A stretch of DNA of 64,000 bases, from NCBI RefSeq assembly GCF_025971955.1, contig NZ_JAPDMX010000033.1, positions 62,001 to 126,000 on the forward strand, given 5' to 3'. Under the pieces are notes generated by a model. That model made no database searches and was not told the origin of the DNA. It worked only from the letters and a program-made list of their open reading frames with translations. Every line of letters begins with the position of its first letter. The first letter of the stretch is position 1. The DNA is from Shewanella subflava. GTDB taxonomy: Bacteria; Pseudomonadota; Gammaproteobacteria; Enterobacterales; Shewanellaceae. This document shows positions 36,918 to 39,184 of the stretch, in pieces. The position numbers and the translations under genes are program-made.

Positions 36918-36950
36918 AACGCCCGCGACATTTGTTGTGGGCGTTTTTTT
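36918..36950 (+). terminator. intrinsic terminator after asnB
   Basis: AACGCCC pairs with GGGCGTT (36938-36944) and inner GCGACA pairs partly with TGTTGT, followed by a run of seven T. Confidence 0.85.
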
Positions 36951-37085: not shown

Positions 37086-37111
37086 TGATCAATTATCCGC
37101 ATCAATGCGTA
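37086..37111 (+). promoter_or_regulatory. ECF sigma-type promoter before the LON-domain gene
   Basis: TGATC (37086-37090) is followed after exactly 17 nt by CGTA (37108-37111). The same arrangement precedes the ECF sigma gene at 37792. It resembles the promoter type recognised by RpoE/ChrR-type (ECF11) sigma factors. The start codon is 38 nt downstream. Confidence 0.6.
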
Positions 37112-37148
37112 TTTGTTATTAAATCAATTGAATCATATAAGGTTAGTT

Positions 37149-37733
37149 ATGGTTATCCCACTGTTTCCTTTATCGATGTGCCTGTTGCCCCATGGCTTCA
37201 GTCAATTGCGCATATTCGAACCTAGATACAAACGTTTAGTGACTGAATCGCTTAAAACAAACAGCGGCTTTGGTTTGTGCATGTTAAGCGACGATAAAAA
37301 ACAAATGTTGCCAATTGGTACGCTATGTAAAATTATCGACTTTCAAACTCTAGATGATGGACTTCTTGGCATCACTATCAAGGGGGAGAGAAAATTCCAT
37401 TTAAAAGATTTTATCGTCGAACCTGACGGATTAAAGCGTGGCACAATTGAATTAATAGATGATTGGCCAAAATCGCTGATCAACTTAACTGAATCTCAAA
37501 AAATGAGTCAAATCCAAGCAACTGCAAAAATGTTAAGTGATACCTTGCGGGATATTTTACATCAATACCCCGAGCATTTGGCCCAATACCAAAATGAACA
37601 TTTTGCCGATATCTCATGGGTATGCCAGCGATGGTTAGAGATCATTCCATTAAGTGCAGCTGAAAAATACCATTGCATAAATAATCATGACCATAAAATG
37701 GCGCAGAGTTATTTAAGTAATATCATTAAGTAA
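37149..37733 (+). CDS. LON substrate-binding-domain protein
   Basis: The ATG at 37149 is preceded by AAGG at 6 nt and gives a 194-residue protein. It begins MVIPLFPLSMCLLPHGFSQL and contains IFEPRYKRLV, the start signature of the Lon N-terminal (PUA-like) substrate-binding domain. There is no ATPase or protease part. Stand-alone proteins of this type are common in bacteria but poorly understood. The ECF-type promoter and the next two genes suggest a role in the same singlet-oxygen or photooxidative stress response; this is inference. Confidence 0.82.
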   Translation: MVIPLFPLSMCLLPHGFSQLRIFEPRYKRLVTESLKTNSGFGLCMLSDDKKQMLPIGTLCKIIDFQTLDDGLLGITIKGERKFHLKDFIVEPDGLKRGTIELIDDWPKSLINLTESQKMSQIQATAKMLSDTLRDILHQYPEHLAQYQNEHFADISWVCQRWLEIIPLSAAEKYHCINNHDHKMAQSYLSNIIK

Positions 37734-37791
37734 CTGCATTTCCAAGTGATGTAAAAATATAGATGATGTACAAAAAATAACTCACAAAAGA

Positions 37792-37817
37792 TGATCTAAT
37801 TATAATTTATCGACGTA
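37792..37817 (+). promoter_or_regulatory. ECF sigma-type promoter before the sigma factor gene (autoregulation)
   Basis: TGATC (37792-37796), 17 nt, CGTA (37814-37817), followed by TAG. It sits 44 nt before the ATG of the sigma gene and has the same spacing as the element at 37086. This suggests autoregulation of the sigma/anti-sigma operon. Confidence 0.65.
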
Positions 37818-37860
37818 TAGACAATTACAATCGGCAAATAACACGACGCGAGTGAAGATA

Positions 37861-38511
37861 ATGGAAAATTTTCAATCACAAACTGCGGAAAATCGTTATG
37901 ATAAAGCAAGTCTTGCTAAAAATAACGGTGCTACACAATTGTCTAACACAAACGAACTCGATGCAGAACAATTAGCAGAGTTAATGCTCAAGGTAGCCAA
38001 CTTACGCTGTAAAGTCTCATTCGCCAAACTATTCAAGCATTTCGGCCCTAAGATAAGCGCATTCGGTAATCAAAGATTGCATCAACAGGGTCTTGCGATG
38101 GATTTAGTCCAAGAAACCATGACGCGTGTTTGGACCAAAGCACATTTGTACAGTGAAGATAAAGCTGCTGTAAGCACTTGGGTATTCACGGTGATGCGAA
38201 ATCAGTGCTTTGATATGCTGCGTAAAGTACAGCACAACAAAGAAGACTCTTTTGGTGACGACATTTGGCCTCTTTTCGAATCAGACGATGCCGAAAGTAA
38301 TGAAGATGATTTTAAATTGTCCGGCACGCTTCTTCGTCATGTGGATGAATTACCTCCACTACAAAGACAAATTGTGCAGGGTATTTACATGCAGGAAATG
38401 ACCCAACAAGAATTAGCGGACAAACTCGGTATCCCCATAGGCACAGTCAAATCTAGATTAAGATTAGGCTTAGAAAAGTTAAAGGGATTTATGGAGAAAC
38501 ATTATGATTAA
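37861..38511 (+). CDS. ECF sigma factor of the RpoE/ChrR type
   Basis: The 216-residue protein has sigma region 2 (FGPKISAFGNQRLHQQG, DLVQETMTRVWTKA, VSTWVFTVMRNQCFDMLRK) and region 4 (ELPPLQRQIVQGIYMQEMTQ, GIPIGTVKSRLRLGLEKLK). The ATG at 37861 follows GAGTGAAG; a GTG three codons earlier is part of that site. It overlaps the ChrR-like gene by 8 nt, the usual pairing with a zinc anti-sigma factor. In Rhodobacter and relatives this pair responds to singlet oxygen. Shewanella gene name rpoE2 is possible but unproven here. Confidence 0.88.
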   Translation: MENFQSQTAENRYDKASLAKNNGATQLSNTNELDAEQLAELMLKVANLRCKVSFAKLFKHFGPKISAFGNQRLHQQGLAMDLVQETMTRVWTKAHLYSEDKAAVSTWVFTVMRNQCFDMLRKVQHNKEDSFGDDIWPLFESDDAESNEDDFKLSGTLLRHVDELPPLQRQIVQGIYMQEMTQQELADKLGIPIGTVKSRLRLGLEKLKGFMEKHYD

Positions 38512-39184
38512 GTACCATCCACAACATGAACTATTGTCTCTCCACATTAAAGGTGAGCTTCCGTTATCTATGTCTTTGGCAATCTCCGCTCACGCAGAGC
38601 TTTGTGACATATGTCAGCAAAAACTGAACCGTCTAACAGAATGTGAAACTGCTGCGACATTCGATAATAATACCGAGTCAAACATCAGTGTTGATTTAGA
38701 TTCTGAAATGTCTTCTTTGTTGGCTCACATGATGCAGGACACTTTAGATGAGCTAGATGCTAATCCAGCTCAACCCTATAATGAAGGGGTGACTGAAGTC
38801 ACCGTTAAAGACCAATCATACCCTTTACCCCGCGCATTTAGACATCAAATAAATGCACAATGGCAAGGTATCGGAAAAGTCAGTCGATTACGTCTCAATA
38901 CGGGTGAGGAACAATCAAGAGCAAGCTTGTTACACATAGCACCTCAAGGCGAGATCCCTGAACACACTCACAAAGGTTCAGAACTGACCCTTCTGTTGGC
39001 GGGTGAATTTAGTGATGAATATAATACATATCGACCCGGTGATTTTATGCTGCTAGATGAGAATCATCAGCATTCACCAAAAACAATGACTGGATGTCTA
39101 TGTTACACAATAGTTGATGCACCATTATATTTTACTAAAGGATTCAGTAAGTTATTAAACCCTATCGGTGAATTGCTTTACTGA
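38504..39184 (+). CDS. chrR: ChrR-type zinc/cupin anti-sigma factor
   Basis: The 226-residue protein has an N-terminal zinc-binding anti-sigma domain with His30-x3-Cys34-x2-Cys37 (HAELCDIC), and a C-terminal cupin with ligand pattern HTHKGSE plus a later histidine in ENHQHSPKT, the metal site of ChrR. ChrR binds its sigma factor and releases it upon singlet-oxygen-type stress. All expected ligands are present. It overlaps the sigma gene by 8 nt. A hairpin follows at 39235. Confidence 0.9.
   Translation: MIKYHPQHELLSLHIKGELPLSMSLAISAHAELCDICQQKLNRLTECETAATFDNNTESNISVDLDSEMSSLLAHMMQDTLDELDANPAQPYNEGVTEVTVKDQSYPLPRAFRHQINAQWQGIGKVSRLRLNTGEEQSRASLLHIAPQGEIPEHTHKGSELTLLLAGEFSDEYNTYRPGDFMLLDENHQHSPKTMTGCLCYTIVDAPLYFTKGFSKLLNPIGELLY

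Follow-up and report, generated by a model that had tools for sequence, protein, structure and literature searches.

Within Shewanella oneidensis MR-1, the genes SO_1987, SO_1986 (rpoE2) and SO_1985 (chrR) form the same three-gene arrangement, with the same promoter motifs, as the locus described here. SO_1987 is listed as 'Lon domain protease' in Table 1 of PMC4336711 (BMC Microbiol 2015;15:34), with the promoter TGATCAAATTCTGATGATGGTACGTAAT, beside SO_1986 rpoE2. In a strain null for rpoE2, arabinose-induced expression of rpoE2 from a plasmid raised the transcripts of chrR, SO_1987, SO_3349, SO_3386 and SO_4169, for SO_1987 as seen by semi-quantitative RT-PCR, and several Shewanella strains without rpoE2-chrR were also without these regulon genes, a coincident absence (PMC4336711). 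The oxidants used on S. oneidensis were hydrogen peroxide and paraquat; singlet oxygen was not among them (PMC4336711). The link between the sigma factor and the LON-domain gene is thus already known, having been described and tested in S. oneidensis in 2015, and the statement in an earlier note on this DNA that no description of it was known does not hold, as PMC4336711 both describes and tests RpoE2-dependent SO_1987. LON proteins from the S. oneidensis group share ~55-60% identity with the one encoded in our window (the whole 64-kb stretch of DNA analysed), and S. oneidensis is a different species.

Two further systems are close to this locus. The blue-light ChrR operon of V. cholerae, VC2303-VC2302-VC2301, contains a 'hypothetical' gene, VC2303, that adjoins sigE (PMC5241685). 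LotP of Liberibacter has been reported to bind GroEL, DnaJ, ClpX and Lon and to be without chaperone activity, and its own role is debated (PMC5404198, PMC8371691).

An RpoE-ChrR module with two matching promoters

The module and its borders are made up of the following features:

36918-36945, + strand: terminator-like hairpin (12-pair stem, T-run) that follows asnB and bounds the module upstream
37086-37111, + strand: predicted promoter of the LON-domain gene, ECF11-type TGATC-N17-CGTA, TGATCAATTATCCGCATCAATGCGTA; 38 nt to the ATG at 37149
37149-37733, + strand: LON-domain gene, 194 aa, ATG at 37149; PF02190 LON_substr_bdg, E 2.4e-21
37792-37817, + strand: predicted rpoE-chrR promoter, ECF11-type, autoregulated, TGATC-N17-CGTA, TGATCTAATTATAATTTATCGACGTA; 44 nt to the ATG at 37861
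37861-38511, + strand: rpoE, ECF sigma factor, RpoE2-like, Sigma70_r2 and Sigma70_r4, ATG at 37861
38504-39184, + strand: chrR, zinc/cupin anti-sigma factor, TIGR02451 195.6 bits, Cupin_7

The hairpin, which stands between asnB and the LON-domain gene, was found by a consensus scan for which 1.6 such sites are expected by chance in the region; the same scan gave no terminator-like hairpin in the interval between the LON-domain gene and rpoE. While the ORF list begins the LON-domain frame at an upstream TTG (37113), we use the ATG at 37149. The score of the window's ChrR lies above the TIGR02451 cut-off of 124.5, rpoE and chrR overlap by 8 nt, and an ECF sigma gene overlapping a ChrR-type gene behind an autoregulated TGATC-N16-18-CGTA promoter is expected of an ECF11 RpoE-ChrR module. 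The locus is an RpoE-ChrR (ECF11-type) oxidative/photo-oxidative stress module, and the gene products named in the earlier note agree with PF02190, the ECF sigma domains and the TIGR02451 ChrR match. Its reading of the second site as autoregulated is likewise upheld, since expressing rpoE2 in the S. oneidensis rpoE2 null mutant raised chrR (PMC4336711). Elsewhere in the window, at 2647-2792, an SdsR/RyeB small RNA (2693-2788, + strand) was recognised together with an overlapping antisense match to SraC/RyeA, both above the Rfam gathering score.

Both promoter sites are intergenic and lie 5' of a start codon, and re-checking reproduced the coordinates, the 17-nt spacing and the distances of 38 and 44 nt given earlier. 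The 64-kb window has exactly two copies of TGATC-N17-CGTA, one ahead of the LON-domain gene and one ahead of the ECF sigma gene; loosening the spacer to 15-19 nt leaves the same two sites only, in line with the earlier note, which had noticed no other. For this looser pattern, however, 1.35 matches are expected in the window by chance, and two matches are therefore not significant by themselves. Genome-wide, a pattern search for TGATC-N16-18-CGTA returned 64 matches against 52 with a reversed control, which is near chance, and we dropped the nine-base motif as sole evidence. It had been proposed that a random rate of occurrence elsewhere in the genome would refute the link; taken literally these counts come close to doing so, but conservation across orthologues decides the matter.

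The phylogenetic footprint was drawn from 30 Shewanella genomes in which a close orthologue of the LON gene is present. In 29 of these 30, the 200 bp before the LON gene contain an exact same-strand N16-18 site, with an N17 spacer in 26 and 25 distinct spacer sequences among the 29; the thirtieth orthologue has a site with one mismatch. The controls gave 1/30 on the opposite strand, 0/30 in the next 1,100 bp upstream and 0.2% in shuffles. All 30 loci have the sigma gene directly 3' of the LON gene, and rpoE itself is preceded by an exact or one-mismatch site in every one of them. With 29/30 against 1/30 on the opposite strand, the promoter motif of the LON gene is more than chance, and it is this footprint that carries the case. 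The view that the LON gene is a bystander, ahead of which a promoter-like sequence arose by accident, can draw on the genome-wide counts of the nine-base pattern (64 against 52), but given the footprint and the strict synteny it is extremely improbable, and for the orthologue SO_1987, which is RpoE2-dependent (PMC4336711), it has already been refuted.

We inspected the downstream genes of about 50 of the 64 genomic sites, among which four are credible regulon sites: those before rpoE, before LON, before a cfa operon (SnoaL-like/SDR/amine-oxidase/DUF1365/cyclopropane-synthase/DUF2878/DUF3833; C11:154071) and before the glutathione peroxidase-ferrochelatase pair pgpD-hemH2 (C11:374702). Because the latter two correspond to operons of the S. 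oneidensis regulon (PMC4336711), the motif is very probably a working promoter of the window's sigma factor too. Weaker sites than these four exist, for example an intergenic TGATC-N17-CGTA (L012, G000:C10:45667-45692, - strand) 43 nt before an AhpC/TSA-family peroxiredoxin gene, which is a candidate for an extra regulon member.

The LON-domain gene bears two marks of the RpoE2 regulon, namely an RpoE2-type promoter at 37086-37111, which matches that of SO_1987, and adjacency to rpoE. As judged from the conservation of promoter and synteny, it is a predicted member of the RpoE-ChrR regulon, transcription having been shown for the S. oneidensis orthologues. Of the proposal that it belongs to a photooxidative-stress regulon, membership of the RpoE-ChrR regulon thus stands (SO_1987 is induced; PMC4336711), whereas the word 'photooxidative' carries over by homology only.

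Linkage of the LON gene to rpoE-chrR across families

A ChrR scoring above the family cut-off is present in 45 of 60 Shewanella genomes, and in 41 of these the LON gene adjoins it. The four remaining genomes (G004, G018, G053 and G056) have a ChrR without an adjacent LON gene, while none of the 15 ChrR-less genomes has an intact LON gene of the same type. The co-occurrence gives a Fisher p of 7e-11, uncorrected for shared ancestry. One ChrR-less genome (G001; L161, G001:C68:71601-72109) has a LON gene broken over two frames, which looks like decay following loss of the module. Among named relatives, the LON proteins nearest to that of the window are those of S. aestuarii (90% identity) and S. 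holmiensis (87%).

Outside the genus, the order LON-rpoE-chrR is also present in named Vibrio, Idiomarina/Aliidiomarina, Aestuariibacter and Aeromonas loci. The exact motif precedes LON in 9/9 of the Vibrio and 1/2 of the Aeromonas loci, and most of the remaining named loci have a one-mismatch site. Across a sample of 40 ChrR loci of other families and genera in the order, LON lies directly before rpoE in 29 and ~2 kb upstream in 2, and is absent from 9; the 29 directly linked loci have an exact site in 18 cases and a one-mismatch site in 9, within ~300 bp upstream. By our own estimate, about one in ten loci would show a one-mismatch site by chance over ~300 bp, so that it is the exact sites that carry weight. 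The same motif precedes rpoE in nearly all relatives. The adjacency that the earlier note suggested comparing is kept both in 30/30 Shewanella loci and in other families. It adds scope to the published link, in that rpoE-chrR almost always has the LON-domain gene, behind its own conserved promoter, as a neighbour in several families of the Gammaproteobacteria. Viral relatives were looked for, and none were found.

This linkage bears on whether the LON protein could be a feedback regulator, which would bind ChrR or the sigma factor and hand it over to a protease, so as to sharpen the response or bring it to an end. Such a role would account for the place of the LON gene beside rpoE-chrR and for its own sigma-driven promoter, and the conserved LON-rpoE adjacency, the co-loss with ChrR and the near-strict linkage would also fit a module-specific regulator. 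Furthermore, singlet-oxygen stress leads to degradation of ChrR, and no protease has yet been assigned to its direct cleavage (PMC6852236). In most Photobacterium (L184-L193), the gene adjacent to rpoE is retained as a LON relative, though an extremely divergent one in which little more than the C-terminal WxCxRWLExLP signature survives; a second LON copy, well conserved, is found next to biotin genes and in most cases lacks the promoter motif. One of the two copies has diverged rapidly. In the assemblies of P. damselae and P. halotolerans, however, a LON copy persists although no ChrR was detected. The job of LON is therefore not dependent on the module, and this speaks against a regulator devoted to ChrR or the sigma factor. 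P. frigidiphilum is an ambiguous case, with ChrR matches that are weak and partial only. Several Shewanella, moreover, carry rpoE-chrR without LON, and from these four genomes and the 9/40 other ChrR loci without an adjacent LON it follows that LON is dispensable for the switch. Nor do the ChrR-turnover factors of R. sphaeroides named in PMC6852236 include LON. On balance the LON protein probably does not serve specifically to regulate ChrR or the sigma factor, and we regard the feedback role as unlikely. A related proposal appears slightly more doubtful, namely that the protein is an adaptor dedicated to RpoE-ChrR and induced by the sigma factor, which brings ChrR or oxidised clients to a protease; if true, it would make the protein part of a ChrR-turnover machinery supplied across Shewanella, Vibrio and their relatives.

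The LON protein and its possible role

PF02190 is the sole domain in the 194 aa of the LON protein. Its AlphaFold model has a LON fold (mean pLDDT 92.8), which is matched best by the stand-alone LON domains 7cay and 1zbo, followed by Lon N-domains and cereblon. An identity as Lon protease (S16) was ruled out, since the AAA+ and S16 serine-lysine protease domains are absent and PF02190 stands alone; full-length Lon is encoded separately in the genome, as an 816-aa open frame. The product is a non-catalytic, single LON substrate-binding domain rather than a protease, and the label 'Lon domain protease' for SO_1987 is misleading. The genome also encodes a second LON-only protein (G000:C28:51242-51781), ~25% identical, which belongs to a clade, LON-B, found in many Shewanella genomes. 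In a tree of 83 LON sequences, LON-B forms a separate, long-branched clade, and several lineages lie beside rpoE.

The positions that are invariant in 37 LON-A orthologues are mostly hallmarks of the fold (LRIFEPRY, DGxLG and the WVCQRWLE helix), together with C44. A LON domain that senses oxidants through conserved cysteines, or that binds a small oxidised metabolite in the manner of the cereblon LON fold, would be in keeping with this invariant C44 and with the similarity of the fold to the cereblon LON domain. Yet C11, C159 and C176 are not conserved across families, and C44 is replaced by Ala or Ser in a divergent, rpoE-adjacent Shewanella clade. A redox sensor built on a cysteine cluster was rejected, as three of the four cysteines conserved in Shewanella are lost across families. 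Thalidomide-type ligands are bound by the CULT domain of cereblon, not by its LON domain, and a domain search found the CULT domain to be absent from the LON protein. We consider such a sensor quite improbable.

So what would the LON protein do within this module? Inactivation of ChrR would free the sigma factor to transcribe rpoE-chrR and the adjacent LON gene from their matching promoters, and the LON product would then capture oxidised or misfolded proteins, or dock on GroEL, ClpX, Lon or a similar chaperone or protease. Judging from its fold and from LotP, the protein, once induced by the sigma factor, most likely binds damaged proteins or the chaperone/protease machinery. Taken together, we give a probability of roughly 55% to the reading that this locus is an RpoE-ChrR module with a sigma-driven LON effector, which would serve as a protein-binding partner in proteostasis and probably not as a regulator devoted to ChrR or the sigma factor. 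The role suggested in the earlier note, delivery of damaged proteins or binding of a ligand, would be a plausible one.

Comparison with described systems

The LON protein shares with LotP the architecture of a single LON substrate-binding domain, and both are stand-alone proteins under stress control. LotP differs in being alphaproteobacterial and in answering to LdtR and osmotic stress instead of RpoE-ChrR, and the two are likened at the level of the fold only. The best matches in both sequence and fold, 7cay from Xanthomonas campestris and 1zbo (Bordetella BPP1347), are stand-alone LON N-domain folds with 22-26% identity to the window's protein. A search of the open-access literature found no papers on structures 7cay or 1zbo, and none under the phrase stand-alone LON substrate-binding domain. 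For SO_1987, the difference lies in the annotation: PMC4336711 calls its product a protease, and there is no protease domain there.

The singlet-oxygen response of R. sphaeroides is governed by a homologous sigma/anti-sigma pair of the RpoE-ChrR (ECF11) type with the same type of promoter, and its RpoE regulon has a cyclopropane-synthase operon, like the motif-preceded cfa operon here. A LON-domain gene, which is present in our locus, is not named for R. sphaeroides in the review PMC6852236. In V. cholerae, a third gene beside sigE-chrR is induced by blue light (PMC5241685), and the LON gene holds that place here. Its close relatives V. mimicus and V. metoecus have a LON-domain gene with promoter at the position of VC2303, and from these two species VC2303 is probably the LON gene. 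Being so constant a neighbour of rpoE-chrR, the stand-alone LON protein deserves inclusion in models of the RpoE-ChrR stress response.
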